A DNA stretch of 64,000 nt from Candidatus Paracaedimonas acanthamoebae (GTDB taxonomy: Bacteria; Pseudomonadota; Alphaproteobacteria; Caedimonadales; Caedimonadaceae). Numbering within the stretch: position 1 is the first letter of the stretch; every line of letters starts with the position of its first letter. The DNA lies in the NCBI GenBank assembly GCA_017307065.1, contig JAFKGL010000015.1:1-64000 (forward strand), written 5' to 3'. The notes under the pieces are model-generated. The model saw only the letters and a program-made list of their open reading frames with translations. It was not told the DNA's origin and made no database searches. This document shows, in pieces, positions 41,276 through 51,109 of this stretch. Made by a program: the position numbers and the translations under genes.

Positions 41276-41367
41276 GGAGGGGTGGCCGAGAGGCTGAAGG
41301 CGGCGGTTTGCTAAACCGTTATACGGGTAATTCCGTATCGTGGGTTCGAATCCCATCCCCTCCGCCA
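41276..41367 (+). tRNA. tRNA-Ser (GCU)
   Basis: 92 nt with CCA. Acceptor GGAGGGG pairs with CCCCTCC. The anticodon stem CGGT/ACCG holds loop TTGCTAA. There is a long variable arm (ATACGGGTAATTCCGTAT hairpin) and T-loop TTCGAAT. The 3' two-thirds are repeated exactly at 51046-51109, so this gene is the insertion target of the island to its right and its 3' part was probably supplied by the element. Confidence 0.97.
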
Positions 41368-41369
41368 TT
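41306..41369 (+). repeat. attL: left 64-bp direct repeat of the island
   Basis: Begins in the anticodon stem of the intact tRNA-Ser(GCU) and ends two bases after its CCA. Identical to 51046-51109. Tyrosine integrases commonly cross over in tRNA anticodon or T-arm sequences. Confidence 0.9.
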
Positions 41370-41938: not shown

Positions 41939-43699
41939 TTACAACTTGAATTGTAATTTAGCATATTTTTGGTAGATTCCACTTCTATTTAGTAGCTCTT
42001 TATGTGAACCTCTATCAACTATTGAGCCTTTATCAAGGACAAAAATCTCATCAGCACTTGTAACAGTTGCTAGTCTGTGTGCAATTATGATTGCGGTTTT
42101 ATCTTTTAAAAATTTTTCCATAGCTCTTTGAATAAGATTCTCACTTTCTGCATCTAAAGAACTTGTTGCTTCGTCTAATAAAATAATTTGAGAATTTTTT
42201 AAAATTGCTCTAGCTAGTGCGATTCGTTGTTTTTGTCCTCCAGAAAGACGAACACCTTTTTCTCCAACAAAAGTTTGGTATTTATTTGGTAATAATTCAA
42301 TAAACTCAGTTGCTTGGGCTAGCTCACATGCTTTACTAACTTCAGCAAAAGTTGCATCAAGCTTGCTAAATCTAACATTTTCCCAAATAGTATCTGAAAA
42401 AACAAAAGGATCTTGAGAAACTAAAGAAATGAGATTTCTATAGTTATGTAAATCAAGATTTTTAATATTTTTATCATCAATATATAGGTTACCTACAGAA
42501 GGGTCATAGAAGCGTAGTAATAGCTTAAATAAGGTTGATTTACCTGTACCAGAAGGGCCTACCAAAGCGATTTTTTGACCCTTTTTTATTTCAAATGATA
42601 TGTCTTTTAATATGTATTTATTAGGATTTGAAGGATAAGAAAAATTCACGTTATCATATTTAATTCCTTGTTTGATTTTCGTTAGAAAAGTAACAGGTGT
42701 TTGAGTTATGATTAATGGGTGAGTGTTGAAAAGCTGTTGTAGGCGCTCAGTAGCTCCAGCTGCTCTGTAAATACTTGAAGATAATTCAGCAAGCTCAGAT
42801 AAAGAATACCCAGCGAGAGTGCAGAAATATGCAAACGACACAAATTGAGACCCAGTAATATTTAAATAGGTAAGATTGTAATTTGCTAAAGAAAGTAAAC
42901 AAGTTATGACAAAAAATACTCCTATTGTAGTTAATGCTTTTGATAAACCAAAAAAGCGTATCCGATTAATGATTAAATCACTTTCTTCACGAGACTTTCT
43001 AGCGAACTCTCTAAAAGATACTTCTTCATGTGAGTATGCCTTTATTGTTTGAATTGCATTAACGGTCTCTTCTACATGGGCTGAAATGAGTGCTGCTTTT
43101 GTTTGAATTTCCCTGGAGACAAGGCGGATTTTTCTTCCAAAGAAAATAGATGAAATTGCTACTAGTGGGGATAGCAGCACTATTAAGAAACATAAGGAAG
43201 GGCTTATGTACAGCATCATAATAAAACTACTAAAGAATAAAACAACATGATTGATAAAATTAGAAAAAGTTCCAACAAAAATAATTTCAATTACTAGCGT
43301 ATCGGCAGTAATACGCGAGATAATATCCCCTGTCTTATGGGTTTCGAAAAAGGATGTATCCATTGTCATCGTGTGCTTATAAGCTGAATCCCTAAGGTCT
43401 CTAACAAGCTTTTCTCCTAATTTTCCTGCGAAAAAATACCTTCCAAAAATAGACAATGAGGAAATAACTACAGCTATAAGAATGGGAATGGATACACTTT
43501 TTATAAAAGCTAGACCTGCTTGTGTTTGTGTAGAATCAAACAAGTTTCTTACTATTCGACCTCCATACATAATAGAAGCTGTGGATATTGCAAGAAAAAA
43601 AAGAAAAACCAGGATGTCTTTTTTATGTGGTTTTAGATATTTTGCTAAGAATGCAAGGTTTTTTAGATTATAATTTGGGGCTTCTTTAAAACTAATCAT
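41939..43699 (-). CDS. ABC exporter, membrane and ATPase domains fused (MsbA/ABCB10-like)
   Basis: 586 aa. Six membrane helices (about 30-300), with FFETHKTGDIISRITADTLVIE typical of alphaproteobacterial ABCB10-like exporters. The ATPase follows with GPSGTGKSTLFKLLLRF (near 378), LSGGQKQRIALARAILKNSQIILLDEATSSLD and IIAHRLAT. There is no N-terminal C39 peptidase domain, so it would not cleave a leader itself. Last gene of the island unit, 199 nt after the DUF1015 gene. It is the probable exporter of the product or a self-protection pump; that is inference from position. Confidence 0.9.
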   Translation of the reverse strand: MISFKEAPNYNLKNLAFLAKYLKPHKKDILVFLFFLAISTASIMYGGRIVRNLFDSTQTQAGLAFIKSVSIPILIAVVISSLSIFGRYFFAGKLGEKLVRDLRDSAYKHTMTMDTSFFETHKTGDIISRITADTLVIEIIFVGTFSNFINHVVLFFSSFIMMLYISPSLCFLIVLLSPLVAISSIFFGRKIRLVSREIQTKAALISAHVEETVNAIQTIKAYSHEEVSFREFARKSREESDLIINRIRFFGLSKALTTIGVFFVITCLLSLANYNLTYLNITGSQFVSFAYFCTLAGYSLSELAELSSSIYRAAGATERLQQLFNTHPLIITQTPVTFLTKIKQGIKYDNVNFSYPSNPNKYILKDISFEIKKGQKIALVGPSGTGKSTLFKLLLRFYDPSVGNLYIDDKNIKNLDLHNYRNLISLVSQDPFVFSDTIWENVRFSKLDATFAEVSKACELAQATEFIELLPNKYQTFVGEKGVRLSGGQKQRIALARAILKNSQIILLDEATSSLDAESENLIQRAMEKFLKDKTAIIIAHRLATVTSADEIFVLDKGSIVDRGSHKELLNRSGIYQKYAKLQFKL

Positions 43700-43898: not shown

Positions 43899-44891
43899 CT
43901 AGAAGGTATACACGAAAACATTGTCTGGTATTTTTGGTTCAAACCAAGTTGAATGTGGAGGAAGTGGGGAAAGGTGACTGACGTTTGGTACTAAGGAAAA
44001 TGGAAAGGCAGGTATAATGAGCTGGAATAAGGAGTTACCAAAATCTTCTCTAGATTGAGATTCTTCTAATTTTATGTTTGAAAAACTATGCAGAAGAGCA
44101 GGTGTTTTTCCTTTTTCATAAAAAAATTGCAATGTATTTCGAATGTCTAATTCGTTAGAGGTCGCTTTTATTATATAAAACTGATCAAAATAACGTAAGT
44201 TAATGAAATGTTTATACTTGAATGATTTATACTCGTCTTCATGAATTCTTTTTAGAAAAAATTTTTTACTTGCTTGATTAAATATTTCTTTAACCTGATC
44301 GCAGTTTAAGAAGTAAGAGCGTATAATGGGCTTAGTTATTACTTGATCTGACGCAAGTAAATAATACATTAAATATCCAGTGTTTTGGTCGAAAGCCTTG
44401 ACGCGATGGTGACCATCTACTATGTGCAGATAAGTTAAAGAATTATAGACACTCGCAAGTTGGGGCATATATGGATTATTTTTCCATATTTCTATAAATA
44501 TTCCTTGTTTTTCTAGTACGTAGTTTGCAGAGAATTTTTCACTTATATTTTTAAGATAGGTATTAATTAAGTAATGATTATTATGTGCTAAAATTATTGG
44601 ATTTTTTTGTTTCTTTGTTTCTAAAAGACTGTTCTTCAAATTGGTAATCTTGCTAGTTATACAAGTTTCGTGTGGTAACAATTGATTAGAGTACCTTAAA
44701 TCGAGCAGACCAACTACCCCTATAGCATTGTTTATTTTTACAACACAAAATGGAAAAATCCGATGACTTTTATTTGCTCTTATAGTGGGCAATATGTCCG
44801 CTTCAGATAGGTAAAAAGTAGAAGATTTTGCTTGCAAAGATTGAGGAAGAAGATAATCTCGCTTAATATTTTCTAGGTTCATAGCGCTCAC
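43899..44891 (-). CDS. DUF1015 family protein (ParB/SerK-like fold suspected)
   Basis: 330 aa from a GTG at 44891 (AAAGGA just upstream). An ATG nine bases further in is possible. The DUF1015 pattern is visible: LLPHETCITSKITNLKNSLLETKKQKNPIILAHNNH, the central HIVDGHHRVKAF near 175-186, and the C-terminal STWFEPKIPDNVFVY. The DGHHR element also occurs in ParB-superfamily free-serine kinases (SerK, SbnI), so a nucleotide-dependent phosphotransferase is one idea; the activity is not established. It is 15 nt after the PLP-enzyme gene. Shorter than the usual about 400 aa. Confidence 0.75.
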   Translation of the reverse strand: MSAMNLENIKRDYLLPQSLQAKSSTFYLSEADILPTIRANKSHRIFPFCVVKINNAIGVVGLLDLRYSNQLLPHETCITSKITNLKNSLLETKKQKNPIILAHNNHYLINTYLKNISEKFSANYVLEKQGIFIEIWKNNPYMPQLASVYNSLTYLHIVDGHHRVKAFDQNTGYLMYYLLASDQVITKPIIRSYFLNCDQVKEIFNQASKKFFLKRIHEDEYKSFKYKHFINLRYFDQFYIIKATSNELDIRNTLQFFYEKGKTPALLHSFSNIKLEESQSREDFGNSLFQLIIPAFPFSLVPNVSHLSPLPPHSTWFEPKIPDNVFVYTF

Positions 44892-44906: not shown

Positions 44907-46028
44907 TTATAAAAGCAATACCTCACGTAAGCGGCCAATTAAACTTTGCACCTCTGCCTCTTCAATGCTTACCGGATTAATTACAAGATGATCAAAATCC
45001 TTCAAATAAAGCATAAAAACAGATGGAGTTCCTTGCCTCATTAGTCTTACAACTTCCTCTCCTCGCGGTCCTTTCCATTCATTTTCAGCTGTTATTACAG
45101 CTACAGGTACATTATAAAGAACATTGTCATGTATAATTTTTAGTTGGATTCCCTTTATATCCCCTATACCCTCTATAATTAAATTTAATATTTTATAAAA
45201 ACGAGCGAACATCTGTTGTTCATCGCTTTCTACGTATGCTCTTAATGCGACGTAAAGTCCAACAATGTCTTCTTTTGATACTTTATGAGGTCTGCCAATT
45301 GCATGCTGAGGACTGCTATTTAGTAATGCGGCATTTATTAATTCTTTTTTCCCGCAGAGAATACCAGTAGCTTGCGGTCCTTTTATTATTTTACCGCCGC
45401 TAAACGTTACCAAATCTGCCCCTTCTTCAATAAATCTATGTAAGTTAATTTTAGGAGGAAGCATGGCTGCTGCGTCTACAATTACAGGAACGTTACGTTT
45501 GTGTGCAATCTCAACTACTTCACTTAATTTGAGGCCATTCTGAAGAATGCGTGGTCCAAAGATATAGGCAACTGCGGCGGTACTCTCGTTAATTGCTTCT
45601 TCTAGCTCTTCTTTAAGACAGCTAGTTATAGACCCTATCTCTACCAGCTTTGCTCCAGAAAAGGCATACATTTGGGAGTATGCTATACGATGCATTTTTT
45701 GGATGATTAATTCACTTTTCATACCATTTGTACTTGGTAGTCTGCGTATTTTTCCCTTGTTACATCCTGTCATGCAAGCAGCTATGGAAAGAACAACCCC
45801 ACTAGCTGCCCCGCTTGTTACCATTCCAGCTTCTGCATGGGTTATTTTTGCTATATATTTTCCTATGTTGTAATTAAGTTGCTCTATATCTACAAAATAT
45901 TTGGAAGCTTCGGCCATTGCTTGTACAACTACCTCGGACATTTTTGTTCCTCCACAAGCAGTCTTCCATCCTCCTGCATTAATAAGAGGCCTGATCCCAA
46001 ATTTGTCGTAAATATTGTTTTCAAACAT
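44907..46028 (-). CDS. SelA/DgaE-like PLP-dependent enzyme
   Basis: 373 aa, fold type I PLP enzyme. The opening RPLINAGGWKTACGGTKMSEVVVQAM and GAASGVVLSIAACMTG match the SelA / D-glucosaminate-6-phosphate ammonia-lyase group. The aspartate contacting the cofactor is in VPVIVDAAAMLPP, and the Schiff-base lysine in TFSGGKIIKGPQATGILCG. Relatives act on seryl-tRNA or eliminate water/ammonia from hydroxy- or phospho-amino compounds. It is not ordinary SelA: about 80 residues shorter, and no selB, selD or selC is here. Starts one base after the reductase stop, so translation is coupled. Confidence 0.85.
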   Translation of the reverse strand: MFENNIYDKFGIRPLINAGGWKTACGGTKMSEVVVQAMAEASKYFVDIEQLNYNIGKYIAKITHAEAGMVTSGAASGVVLSIAACMTGCNKGKIRRLPSTNGMKSELIIQKMHRIAYSQMYAFSGAKLVEIGSITSCLKEELEEAINESTAAVAYIFGPRILQNGLKLSEVVEIAHKRNVPVIVDAAAMLPPKINLHRFIEEGADLVTFSGGKIIKGPQATGILCGKKELINAALLNSSPQHAIGRPHKVSKEDIVGLYVALRAYVESDEQQMFARFYKILNLIIEGIGDIKGIQLKIIHDNVLYNVPVAVITAENEWKGPRGEEVVRLMRQGTPSVFMLYLKDFDHLVINPVSIEEAEVQSLIGRLREVLLL

Positions 46029-46029
46029 T

Positions 46030-46995
46030 TTATAGTATTTTCGGTTTCCTAGTGTTTATCATGCTAACAATTTTCTCAATGATATTTTTTTCTATTGATT
46101 CTAGGTATTTTACTTTCACGCTATCGTTAAGCTGAGATAAGTTGGATGGACTTGTTAACACAGTATCGATTACAGGCGCGGACATAGAGAATAATAAGCA
46201 AGCTTGAGCTTTGGTTAAGTTTGTTCCCAGATAGTTAGCTAATTTTTGGTCAACAACCTTTGGCAAAGAGCCACCGTGCAAAGGTGAGCTAGCATAAACC
46301 TTTACACCAAATTCTTGTGCTTCAAAAAGTGGACCTTTTTGTTGAAAATAACTACTTATGTGGTGGCAATTAACTAAGCTTATTGGTGTTTGGATGAGTG
46401 AAAAGTGATGATCGGAACATATTTGTCTAGCTAGTTCGTAAAGTTCCTTAACGGAAAATGCAGGAGCTTTTGAAGGTGTGCCAAAACCACTCCATGTAGC
46501 TACTCCGTATTTTTTAATTTTTCCTTGAGCAACGAATTCTTCTAGCACCTCAAATACCTTTTGTAGATTGCGTAATAGTAAACCTCTTTCACTTACATTA
46601 AGTTGTGCCTCAGGATTGTGAATGAATACTCCTTCTATAGTGGAAACGCCGAGTTCTTCAAGATTTTGCGTTACTTGATATTTAATGTACTTTTCTTGAA
46701 TGTTATGACAATGATGAGTATTCTTAGTATCTATTATAGAATTTCTCAGCAAATATTCTTTATCTTTTGCTGCAAAAAAACCAACCTTTGTGGTAATTTT
46801 CAGGCTATTTCCATGCAGTAAGCTAAATTCATTTCTTTCTTTTAAAAACCCTCCTATTTCTTTTTGAGCTACATTTTCTCTATAATTAGGGGCTGTATCA
46901 ATTAGCGATATTCCTTTATTTAAGGCTTCTTGAAGTATGGGTTCCAAGCTTGAGTGTATACTGTACGTACCAATTCCTATTTGAGCTTTATTCAT
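46030..46995 (-). CDS. aldo/keto reductase
   Basis: 321 aa from the ATG at 46995, one base after the preceding stop; an earlier in-frame start would overlap that gene. TIM-barrel with the AKR tetrad: Asp and Tyr in LIDTAPNYRE, Lys in ITTKVGFFA, His in VFIHNPEAQ. The segment VTQNLEELGVSTIEGVFIHNPE follows the family pattern. NADPH-dependent carbonyl reduction or the reverse is expected. It sits between an oxygenase and a PLP enzyme, which suggests a tailoring role. Homologues in sugar metabolism are an alternative. Confidence 0.88.
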   Translation of the reverse strand: MNKAQIGIGTYSIHSSLEPILQEALNKGISLIDTAPNYRENVAQKEIGGFLKERNEFSLLHGNSLKITTKVGFFAAKDKEYLLRNSIIDTKNTHHCHNIQEKYIKYQVTQNLEELGVSTIEGVFIHNPEAQLNVSERGLLLRNLQKVFEVLEEFVAQGKIKKYGVATWSGFGTPSKAPAFSVKELYELARQICSDHHFSLIQTPISLVNCHHISSYFQQKGPLFEAQEFGVKVYASSPLHGGSLPKVVDQKLANYLGTNLTKAQACLLFSMSAPVIDTVLTSPSNLSQLNDSVKVKYLESIEKNIIEKIVSMINTRKPKIL

Positions 46996-46996
46996 T

Positions 46997-48193
46997 TTAA
47001 TGCTCAATAGTAGCAAGTCCACTTATGACTAGGCTTGATAAAAGATTGCGTAATTGCTCTTTCTTGAGGTCTTGGTTATTAAGAATTTCCTGATAGGGGT
47101 GAGATTGATAATCAAGCATTAGATCAAAAAATGATTTTGTTTTTAACGAAAAGGAATATGTTTTTTTAGCGGATTTAAAGGTTAACACGTTTTGTGCAGT
47201 GTTTATTTGTAAGTCTTCTATAAAGCTTACATTTAGCCGGACAGAAAAATTTTCTTCCTTGGGTAATGCTTGATTTTCTACAGCATAAGGAAGACTAAAG
47301 TAAGAGCGAGAATTATGGGTTATCTTTTTTGATTGAAGATACTCTGTTAAGAATGTGCTTTGTAAAGTATTGATGATAGCTTCTTTTATTTTTTTATCAT
47401 GCTCTTTTATCTCTTGATTTGTGCTTAGCGTAGGAAGATCATCTCTCATTATATCGAGGGCTGTTAGTTTTTCTTGTAACCAGCTATAAAAACTTATGCC
47501 TGTTGTGCAGTTAATTCCAAATGTTAGATGCAGAGATGGCTCATCAAGGGCTATGGCGTGATGCCATTCTCCTCTAGGAATGTATAATATATCACCTTTT
47601 GAAATAACTTCGTTCCATTTTATATCGGTAGGTGCTGAATTTGATTCAGCAGTGTGTAGATCCGTATAAAGAGGAGACCTTCTTGTATTCCCGAAAAGAA
47701 ACCAGTTCTTTCTTCCACTGATTTGAAAAATGAAAACATCATGGTCATCCCAATGAGTAGCAAAACCCTTTTCAGTTCCCCAAGACATATAAGCATTAAC
47801 TTGTATTCGTTCACTATACGCCTGTTCAAAATAAAAGCAAAAAAGATCAAGAGATTTACATAGCTCGTCAATAGCATCTATAACCAGGGTGCCTCCATTG
47901 CGGAGCACCTCGTATAATTTTTCTACGACTATTTTGTTGTAACCGTCGCTCCTTCTTAAGCTCCTAGGGGCTGTGTAATCAATCTCTGGGATCTGCGTGC
48001 CATTTTTATGAACCCGAAATCTGGGGGCTGTTAATCGAGCGTGACGAAGTAGCCCATTCACTTGATCCCAACTCATTAAGCTATCAATAGCGTCTGATAT
48101 AAGTGCATTTTTAAGATGAAGAGGTCTTTTATTTTTATAAGCGTCTATTAATTTACTAAAAGATTCTTCTTTTATATAATGATGTATTTTCAT
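46997..48193 (-). CDS. JmjC/cupin (ROX-like) 2-oxoglutarate oxygenase
   Basis: 398 aa. The double-stranded beta-helix core is seen from about 130: NAYMSWGTEKGFATHWDDHDVFIFQISGRKNW, with metal ligands H147 and D149, and the third ligand H211 in GDILYIPRGEWHHA, followed by SLHLTFGI. This is the architecture of ribosomal oxygenases and related Cupin_4 hydroxylases. The C-terminal 150 residues look like a winged-helix/dimerisation part (LLSSLVISGLATIEH). Here it directly follows a small peptide gene, so the substrate may be that peptide instead of a ribosomal protein. No clear ribosome binding site; it probably relies on coupling. Confidence 0.86.
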   Translation of the reverse strand: MKIHHYIKEESFSKLIDAYKNKRPLHLKNALISDAIDSLMSWDQVNGLLRHARLTAPRFRVHKNGTQIPEIDYTAPRSLRRSDGYNKIVVEKLYEVLRNGGTLVIDAIDELCKSLDLFCFYFEQAYSERIQVNAYMSWGTEKGFATHWDDHDVFIFQISGRKNWFLFGNTRRSPLYTDLHTAESNSAPTDIKWNEVISKGDILYIPRGEWHHAIALDEPSLHLTFGINCTTGISFYSWLQEKLTALDIMRDDLPTLSTNQEIKEHDKKIKEAIINTLQSTFLTEYLQSKKITHNSRSYFSLPYAVENQALPKEENFSVRLNVSFIEDLQINTAQNVLTFKSAKKTYSFSLKTKSFFDLMLDYQSHPYQEILNNQDLKKEQLRNLLSSLVISGLATIEH

Positions 48194-48214
48194 TTTTAGA
48201 CCATAGGTTACGAC

Positions 48215-48231
48215 GGAGGGGCAAGCCCTCC
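48215..48231 (-). promoter_or_regulatory. GC hairpin between peptide gene and enzyme genes
   Basis: Perfect 6-bp GC stem (48215-48220 with 48226-48231, 5-nt loop) directly after the peptide stop codon, without a T-run on the minus strand. It may act as an attenuator or 3' stabiliser that gives more peptide mRNA than enzyme mRNA. Confidence 0.55.
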
Positions 48232-48238
48232 ATCCTTT

Positions 48239-48391
48239 TCATCCACAATCGTTATTATCTGAACGTCCGCCGCCGCCATCTGAGAAATCACGATCATCTC
48301 TGGTTAACAGTTCTTGTATCCCTTCAACCGCAATCATTAGATTTTCCGTAGATTCTGCTTTGTCTTCTGGTATAAAAGATTTAGTATTCAT
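48239..48391 (-). CDS. candidate RiPP precursor peptide, 50 aa
   Basis: ATG at 48391 with ribosome binding site GGGAG 7 nt upstream; a longer in-frame reading has no better site. Residues 1-33 look like a leader (acidic, amphipathic helix ENLMIAVEGIQELLT). Residues 34-50 are RDFSDGGGGRSDNNDCG: Gly4 flanked by Ser and Asp, ending in Cys-Gly. It is the first gene behind a good promoter, followed by oxygenase, reductase, PLP enzyme, DUF1015 and exporter genes. No match to a known precursor family is recognised. The precursor role is inferred from size, composition and context. Confidence 0.7.
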   Translation of the reverse strand: MNTKSFIPEDKAESTENLMIAVEGIQELLTRDDRDFSDGGGGRSDNNDCG

Positions 48392-48474: not shown

Positions 48475-48502
48475 ATATTAGTCGCTTTATTTAATTAGTC
48501 AA
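48475..48502 (-). promoter_or_regulatory. sigma70-like promoter of the peptide cluster
   Basis: On the minus strand, -35 TTGACT (48502-48497) and -10 TAATAT (48480-48475) with a 16-nt spacer. It points at the small peptide gene about 85 nt downstream. Confidence 0.65.
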
Positions 48503-48557: not shown

Positions 48558-49083
48558 TTAGTCGGGAATTTTTCTTTTCAACTCACGATAAAATGTAGAA
48601 CGTCCTATCTTCAATAGCTTAGAGATGTTAGTAGGCGATTATCCAAACTCAACTAATTTCATTGCCGCATCTAAGGTTTCTTGATCTAAAATAGGCCTGC
48701 CTGGCTTCTTGCCACGCAAGCGCGCTGCTTAGATGCCATCTTTTTGTTCTCTCTGAAATAAGCCTACGCTCAAAATGAGCAATAGCACCAAATACATGAA
48801 ACACTAATTCTCCTGCAGCAGAAGATGTATCAATTTTTTCTTCTAAAGACATCAGTCCAACATTGTGAGTTTTTAGATATTCAACCGTTTCTAGTAACTC
48901 CTTTAAGCTTCTACCCAGTCGATCGAGCCTCACTACACAAAGCAAATCATTGGGTCTGGCATAGGCTATAAGCTCACCAAGACTTGGACGATTAAAATCT
49001 CTACCGCTGATAACGTCTTCAAATAATTTAATGGCTCCAGCTTGTTTTAATCGTTGGCGTTGTGATTCTAGGTCTTGTTGCCG
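48558..49083 (-). pseudogene. serine recombinase (resolvase/invertase) pseudogene
   Basis: Reads QQDLESQRQRLKQAG, then FNRPSLGELIAY, LDRLGRSLKELLETVEYL, SAAGELVFHVFGAIAHFERRLISERT and a C-terminal HTH part (SKLLKIGRSTFYREL). The catalytic-serine N terminus (about 12 residues) is missing. A 1-nt insertion in an A-run near 48750 shifts the frame, and two stop codons interrupt the tail. Homologous to Tn3/Hin-type resolvases. A relic of island mobility, surely inactive. Confidence 0.88.
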
Positions 49084-49333: not shown

Positions 49334-49534
49334 TTAATCCAAACCCAATACCTTCAAGATTTTTATAGCATTTTCCAGTGTAATTGTCGTTTTCCCTTGT
49401 TCAAAATTATTGAGAGTTGGCTTACTAATTCCTGTTAAAATGGCTAGTTGTTCCTGGGTTAGCTTTTGCGATTTGCGACGTTTTATGGCTTCATTGACAA
49501 AGTCTGTCCAATTAAGGCGAATGTTCCGTTCCAT
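49334..49534 (-). CDS. hipB: HipB-like antitoxin, XRE helix-turn-helix
   Basis: 66 aa. One XRE-type HTH domain: RRKSQKLTQEQLAILTGISKPTLNNFEQGKTTITLENAIKIL. In hip systems HipB binds and inhibits the HipA kinase and represses the operon. Here it lies downstream of hipA and overlaps it by 52 nt, the reverse of the E. coli hipBA order. The start (ATG at 49534) is inside hipA, so its synthesis is coupled to the toxin. Confidence 0.85.
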   Translation of the reverse strand: MERNIRLNWTDFVNEAIKRRKSQKLTQEQLAILTGISKPTLNNFEQGKTTITLENAIKILKVLGLD

Positions 49535-50691
49535 CGAGTATCCATTAGTTTTATGAGTTGATTTTTAATATTATCATCCCCTACTGGGGCTGAAAGAATT
49601 GCATCCTTTGCATCACTTTTGTTGCGCTCTAGCTGTTTAAATAACATGTATATGGCTGCTCTTGGTAAAGCAAACTCGTCTGCCATGGCGATTAGATTCT
49701 TAGGTTTGAGATTGCTAATTTGTAGGTTAGGTGTTTCTCCTATAGCCAGGGCAATTGTTTTGTATTTATACAACGCAGCTGCAACTTGATCGTAAGATGG
49801 TGTTAGCCTCAACCCTGCAGGGGTATGGAACATAGCAAAGTTTTTAAAATGCATGTCCGTATTGTCTAATAGAACCCCGGCTAGAATACGGGCGTAAAGA
49901 CGGTAGTTTTCAATAGGTAAACAGTCTTTGGATGTACGAATGAAATCACTCATCTCTTTATAGCTTCCATCGTATTTAGAACTAGATTTACGGCTTAAAA
50001 GTTGATTAAACTCCTCGAAATGTACCCGACCTTCTGGCGTACGATCAAAGCGTTTGATGATAAGAGCAGGTTCTGAAACACCTTCTATACTTCCAATTGA
50101 CAAGTCAACAACGTCATCATCAGGTAATAATGCTTTAAAAGCAAGGCTGGTTAGATATTCATTAATGATAAGATTAGCGTGTTCCGAAGAGGGAAATTTG
50201 GCAATATGCGTACTGAGTTTGCCGACGGTTGCAGGATAATATTTTCTCTCCCGTTCTATTATCGCTAACTTCGGTTGAACACCTGACAGTGATGCACGGC
50301 CCGTTAAAACAGCTATTTCCTTAGCATCACTCATATCTAACAGTTGTTCCGTTAATTTAGCAGGTTCAGGGTCAACAATCGATACTGCGCCTGCACAATC
50401 ATAACCAAAGGCTAAAAGCAACTCAAATCGTGATGCTTGTCGTTTGTTCAATAACCTGGATTGGGCATGTTCTAACCAGCCTTCAGCGACAAGGTTATCA
50501 AAAAACGGATGTAATCCTGCTTGGCTAATATATATCGTAGATTCTATGGGTATCGTGTATGAGAGAGCAGGATTCCCTGCATTTAGATAAGTAGGATCAT
50601 ATTCAAATGAGGTACGCTCTCCGGGTTCTTCGCGTAGAATGCCAGCAAAGACGTCTTTATAATAAACTTTTCCCCATAGTAAGTTTGCCAT
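49483..50691 (-). CDS. hipA: HipA-like serine/threonine kinase toxin
   Basis: 402 aa. The HipA N-terminal domain (1-100, with FGYDCAGAVSIV) is followed by the kinase fold with Gly-rich loop GRASLSGVQPKLAI (131-144), catalytic DMHFKN (D279, H281, N284) and metal-binding D301 in LTPSYDQVAAA. The active-site residues look intact. Characterised HipA proteins phosphorylate glutamyl- or other aminoacyl-tRNA synthetases and cause persistence. Likely an island stabilisation module. Its own promoter and a small palindrome lie upstream. Confidence 0.92.
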   Translation of the reverse strand: MANLLWGKVYYKDVFAGILREEPGERTSFEYDPTYLNAGNPALSYTIPIESTIYISQAGLHPFFDNLVAEGWLEHAQSRLLNKRQASRFELLLAFGYDCAGAVSIVDPEPAKLTEQLLDMSDAKEIAVLTGRASLSGVQPKLAIIERERKYYPATVGKLSTHIAKFPSSEHANLIINEYLTSLAFKALLPDDDVVDLSIGSIEGVSEPALIIKRFDRTPEGRVHFEEFNQLLSRKSSSKYDGSYKEMSDFIRTSKDCLPIENYRLYARILAGVLLDNTDMHFKNFAMFHTPAGLRLTPSYDQVAAALYKYKTIALAIGETPNLQISNLKPKNLIAMADEFALPRAAIYMLFKQLERNKSDAKDAILSAPVGDDNIKNQLIKLMDTRWNGTFALIGQTLSMKP

Positions 50692-51045: not shown

Positions 51046-51109
51046 GTTTGCTAAACCGTTATACGGGTAATTCCGTATCGTGGGTTCGAATCCCATCCCC
51101 TCCGCCATT
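51046..51109 (+). repeat. attR: right 64-bp direct repeat, 3' part of tRNA-Ser (GCU)
   Basis: Exact copy of 41306-41369. It lacks the acceptor 5' strand and D-arm and so is not a functional tRNA gene. It is the displaced original 3' end of the target tRNA. Confidence 0.92.

Follow-up and report, generated by a model that had tools for sequence, protein, structure and literature searches.

The window, a 64,000-nucleotide stretch of Candidatus Paracaedimonas acanthamoebae DNA analysed here as a whole, carries on its minus strand six closely packed, co-directional genes, the first of which (48239..48391, minus strand) encodes a 50-aa peptide, MNTKSFIPEDKAESTENLMIAVEGIQELLTRDDRDFSDGGGGRSDNNDCG, whose assignment as a precursor peptide is supported by homology. 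The leader comprises approximately residues 1-35, with the motif NLMIAVEGI at 17-25, and the core approximately residues 36-50, FSDGGGGRSDNNDCG; the peptide ends in SDGGGGRSDNNDCG and its tail contains two SD pairs. The preliminary description, made from the sequence alone, had credited the gene with a good ribosome binding site, and this held: the sequence 5′ of the start codon reads ...CAAATGGGAGCCTAACC-ATG, with GGGAG at a suitable spacing. An alternative in-frame TTG farther upstream would give a 71-aa product; the ATG is preferred over it because the ribosome binding site and homology both agree with the ATG. The codon-position GC content of the ORF follows the same ordering as that of the adjacent genes. 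The gene had also been placed first behind a promoter. Its position at the head of the operon held; the promoter-like TTGACT-16-TAATAT upstream of it (48475..48502, minus strand) is a consensus match only, and such sites are no more frequent than in shuffled sequences. Between the precursor gene and the first enzyme gene lies a strong GC hairpin without a T run (48194..48241, minus strand; −16.8 kcal/mol, z −2.7), from which it may be inferred, as a possibility, that the precursor mRNA is favoured.

The five remaining genes are all on the minus strand. The first encodes a JmjC_2/cupin 2-oxoglutarate hydroxylase of 398 aa (46997..48193), which scores 86.7 bits against JmjC_2 (PF08007; cut-off 22) and possesses the HxD...H iron ligands (H147, D149 and H211/H212), so that membership in this family is met. 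It is followed by an aldo/keto reductase (AKR) of 321 aa, counted from the ATG (46030..46995), with its tetrad of D33, Y38, K70 and H126 intact, and by a 373-aa PLP enzyme (44907..46028) in which the SGGK lysine, K213, is present. The latter is SelA/DgaE-like by sequence only: it falls below the curated NCBIfam cut-offs for DgaE/SelA (237.8 vs 385.3, 202.1 vs 600 and 66.4 vs 267.9), and its reaction is not fixed by these scores. A 330-aa SerK-like protein of the DUF1015 family (43899..44891), with the motifs DGHHR and PPHST..EPK, meets the gathering cut-off of PF06245 (29.1 against 25.8), and the last gene encodes a 586-aa ABC exporter (41939..43699) that is MsbA-related by Pfam and NCBIfam. 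Neither collection gave a match to an N-terminal peptidase domain in the exporter, from which we infer that leader removal must be carried out by a protease encoded elsewhere; the operon itself includes no gene for such a protease.

The operon lies within a 9.7-kb segment bounded by an attL-like repeat at 41306..41369 (plus strand), the 3′ part of a tRNA-Ser(GCT) gene at 41276-41367, and an attR-like repeat at 51046..51109 (plus strand) that duplicates the tRNA-Ser 3′ part without mismatch over 64 bp. Two further features lie in the segment with the operon. One is a serine resolvase fragment (48652-48945, minus strand), which sits beside the operon and matches PF00239 with an E-value of 9e-21 over profile positions 66-134 only; the other is a HipBA-like pair, an HTH protein and a HipA-like kinase (PF13657, PF07804) encoded at 49334-50691 (minus strand). 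No tyrosine integrase was noticed inside the 9.7-kb segment. In one genome of the same genus (G001) the gene that flanks the segment at 51.2 kb adjoins the tRNA, including bases beyond the repeat, and the contig ends there; in another genome (G002) the contig ends within the repeat. These arrangements fit an acquired island, although an empty site is not demonstrated by the assemblies compared.

A direct search with the precursor for paralogues, as the preliminary description had recommended, recovered only the peptide itself from its own genome and nothing from plasmids, a search that was unproductive because the 50-aa query is too short. Homologous precursors were reached instead through tblastn with the JmjC and AKR proteins. 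The window JmjC matches Streptomyces plasmid cupin proteins over nearly its full length at ~26-34% identity. The window AKR matches only 28 of 72,556 plasmids, 25 of these 28 being from Streptomyces, in the same places as the JmjC matches. In Streptomyces plasmids and genomes alike, the layout is a small ORF followed by the JmjC, AKR and APH-like kinase genes; the small ORFs are annotated as hypothetical or were missed, and the gene after the AKR is labelled a phosphotransferase in several annotations. With the JmjC alignment as query and a threshold of 1e-70, the JmjC family was found in 79 of 376 sampled Streptomycetaceae genomes (about one fifth), and the best 30 loci of this search contained the AKR in 29 cases, the APH-like gene in all 30 and a recognisable precursor ORF in 28, the AKR and APH-like counts being limited to the fetched flank. 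G690, a distant genome from the same class as the window, carries an AKR gene and then an APH-like gene at a contig start, and among viral-collection contigs there is one close relative (L071).

As a statistical test, a profile was made from 18 relatives in other genomes, with the window sequence left out, and searched against the 590 window ORFs of at least 25 aa. The precursor ORF ranked top with an E-value of 8.7e-7, the runner-up having 0.85 and the best hit of a reversed-sequence control 2.9. A tail-only profile gave 0.057 and a leader-only profile no match, each being too short for significance; the signal is therefore that of both together. The relatives and the window have in common the leader motif [GN]L[LVMI]xxxxxI and an Asp-rich, Gly-rich core with invariant D, N and D. 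The Streptomyces small ORFs end in SDGGGTG[RK]SDGND or SDNTGGKSDMNDT, and also in SDGGGTGRSDGND, SDGGGTGKSDGND and SDVSSGRSDGND; the window SDGGGGRSDNNDCG aligns in register with SDNTGGKSDMNDT and SDGGGTGRSDGND, and the residue following ND is Thr or Ser in SDNTGGKSDMNDT and Cys in the window. Sharing the JmjC and AKR families, their order and a core-bearing precursor, the window operon fits the Streptomyces operon on all three points. The APH-like kinase that follows the AKR there is absent from the window, where by Pfam and NCBIfam the SelA-like and DUF1015 genes occupy its place. The window operon is thus a variant that lacks the APH kinase and has SelA-like, DUF1015-like and export genes in addition, and no locus besides the window was found to combine SelA-like and DUF1015 genes with such a precursor.

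Two other plasmids carry related genes in different settings. In a Nostoc sp. C057 plasmid (L041:6491-8122) a cupin/JmjC gene comes after two short ORFs with Gly/Glu-rich ends, with an NB-ARC/TPR protein encoded divergently, and in a Streptomyces sp. NBC_00158 plasmid (L092) a related cupin gene lies between a thioesterase-bearing non-ribosomal peptide synthetase gene and a YcaO-like gene.

A second precursor subfamily, on four viral-collection contigs (L072-L075), has a similar leader and a different tail, ending in ...GGDGLNIPE in three of the four; JmjC and APH-like genes are present, and the AKR in two of the four. These loci bear on the role of the AKR. In all 18 distinct cores listed from AKR-bearing loci a Ser or Thr precedes Asp, and the Streptomyces cores without an AKR (DGGGTGKGDGND) contain no such pair. 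Within the second subfamily, L072 and L074 have both the AKR and SD, and L073 and L075 have neither; the window, with an AKR and its two SD pairs, matches the rule. We regard this tie between the AKR and the Ser/Thr-Asp pair as a lead and not as proof, because it rests on two groups only and few independent events. A link of the AKR to the second-position Ser alone was dropped, as cores with Thr or Gly at that position also have the AKR. Also set aside were AKR matches in G180, G207, G226 and G285, which sit in long frames; in the G180, G207 and G285 regions the AKR part comes after an epimerase-like part and there is no JmjC match nearby. Long proteins at L067:3531-5816 and L069:4560-6764 likewise appear to combine an epimerase-like part with an AKR from that same distant group.

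The window JmjC resembles NO66, MINA53 and YcfD (PF08007) in its fold, over the whole chain, and in its HxD...H ligands (VIA Z up to 22.7, rmsd 11.2, 328 aligned) and differs from them in sequence, with a whole-chain identity of 16-19%. In its AlphaFold model (mean pLDDT 77.8) the C-terminus consists of three strands and three helices. This β3-α3 order defines RiPP recognition elements, and fusions of RRE-like domains to PF08007 are reported, with homologues from bacteria in RiPP-like contexts (PMC12710340). The predicted domain supports leader binding and does not prove it, and it is not RiPP-specific because the ribosomal hydroxylases NO66 and YcfD carry a similar domain. In the JmjC tree the window protein sits on a long branch (1.56), and no sister group is supported for it; with this placement unresolved, the tree could not be used to assign its origin. 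JmjC matches in those genomes of the same order that were examined were rejected as relatives of the precursor operon, being a chromosomal paralogue beside rluB-like genes. The window's genome has such a second JmjC gene (L012:5052-5993), beside rluB-like and glutamine-amidotransferase-type hydrolase genes, an arrangement also found in two same-order genomes; we infer that this paralogue is a better candidate for a housekeeping hydroxylase than the operon JmjC.

The DUF1015 protein is like the free serine kinases SerK and SbnI in that it keeps DGHHR and gives a weak family-profile match to SerK structures. Searched against the PDB, the DUF1015 alignment profile matched no structures other than those of free serine kinases and of a single hypothetical protein, 1vk1, which we take to be a SerK homologue. 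The difference is that these E-values are only 0.0009 to 0.17, and kinase activity and substrate can at most be inferred for the window protein, whose structure model (pLDDT 36) is too poor for fold comparison. Genome and class searches with it returned generic DUF1015 members only. Its nearest plasmid relative is in Candidatus Bandiella numerosa (L027, NZ_CP104165.1), where the DUF1015 gene comes immediately after sbnA-sbnB, whose products use O-phosphoserine. Close to that gene lie hppD and genes for an MbtH-like protein and a phosphopantetheinyl transferase, and the region resembles a non-ribosomal peptide locus. The characterised SerK enzyme takes free serine as its substrate and does not phosphorylate serine within a peptide (PMC5120207). 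On inferred activity, a phosphoserine step in the window pathway is therefore plausible, with either free serine or the peptide as its substrate.

Among known systems, the biphenomycin pathway (BipG/PbsQ) offers a parallel: its cluster encodes both a RiPP precursor and a JmjC/cupin 2-oxoglutarate enzyme that hydroxylates this precursor, at Orn (PMC12707348). Biphenomycin has its own MNIO, radical SAM enzyme, arginase, TldD protease and FRF core, whereas the window has the core SDGGGGRSDNND and, as partners, the AKR, the PLP enzyme and the SerK-like protein. Membership in the biphenomycin class is not met, as MNIO, B12-radical SAM and arginase are absent from the window operon and the core differs. 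Daptides are RiPPs that use an oxidoreductase and a PLP aminotransferase in one pathway; they have other enzyme families, no JmjC and another precursor, and the resemblance is not sequence-based. None of the NCBIfam models covers the precursors or those Streptomyces JmjC, AKR and APH proteins that were tested, and in the open-access literature searched the core motif and enzyme combination is not described, most subscription papers being outside the scope of that search. The family is thus undescribed in the curated models and papers searched, and the window operon is an uncommon enzyme variant of it.

Comparison of these loci shows a conserved core tail, preceded by a front that varies but keeps a short leader motif, encoded just upstream of a JmjC_2 hydroxylase gene that is mostly followed by a dedicated AKR gene. 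A short gene beside genes for peptide-modifying enzymes, with a conserved C-terminal core and a less conserved N-terminal leader, is what is expected of a RiPP, and the 50-aa ORF is most probably the precursor of such a ribosomally made, modified peptide. The reading is supported because the 18 relatives share 56% identity with the window in the tail (residues 36-48), against 21% in the front, which keeps the leader motif. The division into leader and core that the preliminary description had proposed held on this same comparison, as did its account of the tail, RDFSDGGGGRSDNNDCG (residues 34-50), with two Ser and one Cys. Its suggestion of Asp/Asn hydroxylation fits, Asp and Asn being the invariant core residues and a JmjC hydroxylase being present in the operon. 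The role foreseen for Ser is refined: a Ser next to Asp is nearly conserved and accompanies the AKR. For Cys, neither dehydration nor crosslinking has direct support, as Pfam and NCBIfam searches of the operon proteins returned no lanthipeptide dehydratase or cyclase. The Cys is also not conserved: one Streptomyces subtype has Thr or Ser in its place, and the others lack the position.

In the scheme that we propose, the C-terminal RRE-like winged-helix domain of the JmjC would bind the leader, the enzyme would hydroxylate Asp or Asn in the core, and the AKR would then act at the Ser-Asp step. In Streptomyces and the one distant genome of the window's class, the APH-like kinase would complete the enzyme set; in the window, the SelA-like PLP enzyme and the DUF1015/SerK-like kinase would probably contribute a step derived from serine or phosphoserine. 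Export of the product would fall to the ABC protein, with the leader cut off by a protease from elsewhere in the genome. Our best guess is that the exported product is a signal, an antibacterial or a metal-binding peptide. No product or modification has been observed, and the mature structure and role are inferred.

One alternative divides the operon into two pathways, in which the JmjC and AKR modify the peptide and the SelA-like and DUF1015/SerK-like proteins start from free serine and, by way of O-phosphoserine, make a separate amino acid or small molecule that is exported or attached to the peptide. In its favour are the free-serine specificity of characterised SerK (PMC5120207), the proximity of the nearest plasmid DUF1015 relative to sbnA and sbnB, the weak but exclusive profile matches to SerK-type structures and the lack of SelA-like and DUF1015 genes in the operon relatives examined. 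The operon genes are however close together and in one direction, and no obvious operon enzyme would join a small molecule to the peptide; on balance we lean slightly against this view. The other extreme, that the ORF is leader RNA or a chance ORF before a small-molecule operon, draws on its shortness, its operon-first position and the strong hairpin behind it. The preliminary description had named leader RNA as what would refute it, and the evidence contradicts this: the ORF is not mere leader RNA because dozens of loci keep its reading frame, and frame and tail are conserved across phyla ahead of the same enzymes. This alternative is all but ruled out.

Two further proposals accept the RiPP precursor and concern the function of the mature peptide. 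It may be a cell-to-cell signal, sensed in Streptomyces by a divergent HTH/TPR regulator: in many Streptomyces loci an HTH or TPR protein of ~420-440 aa is encoded just upstream on the opposite strand, Nostoc has an NB-ARC/TPR protein, and many loci are plasmid-borne. Against this, the window operon has no adjoining HTH/TPR regulator and the Streptomyces operons no adjoining exporter, and the case for a signal falls a little short of the case against it. Alternatively, several Asp residues, some of them β-hydroxy-Asp, would chelate iron or calcium. β-Hydroxy-Asp is a siderophore ligand, and an Asp- and Gly-rich core with invariant D, N and D accompanied by a hydroxylase is in keeping with metal binding; the neighbourhood of the operon showed no recognisable gene for a receptor or for iron regulation, and we consider this function unlikely.

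Returning to the modified peptide as the preferred reading, a bolder form of it is possible, though less likely than not, namely that the peptides are a new RiPP class that has spread from Streptomyces plasmids to small-genome, possibly endosymbiont-type bacteria. In this form the JmjC would make hydroxy-Asp or hydroxy-Asn, the AKR would oxidise or reduce the Ser next to Asp, and the SerK-like and SelA-like proteins of the window would act on peptide serine via phosphoserine. If this is true, an AKR would be acting on a side chain of a ribosomal peptide. The enzyme set, the JmjC and AKR together with either the APH-like kinase or the SelA-like and SerK-like proteins, predicts peptide chemistry that is undescribed in the papers and curated models searched, and what began as a guess about one 50-residue ORF becomes a peptide family whose core motif can be tested, found also in small-genome bacteria.
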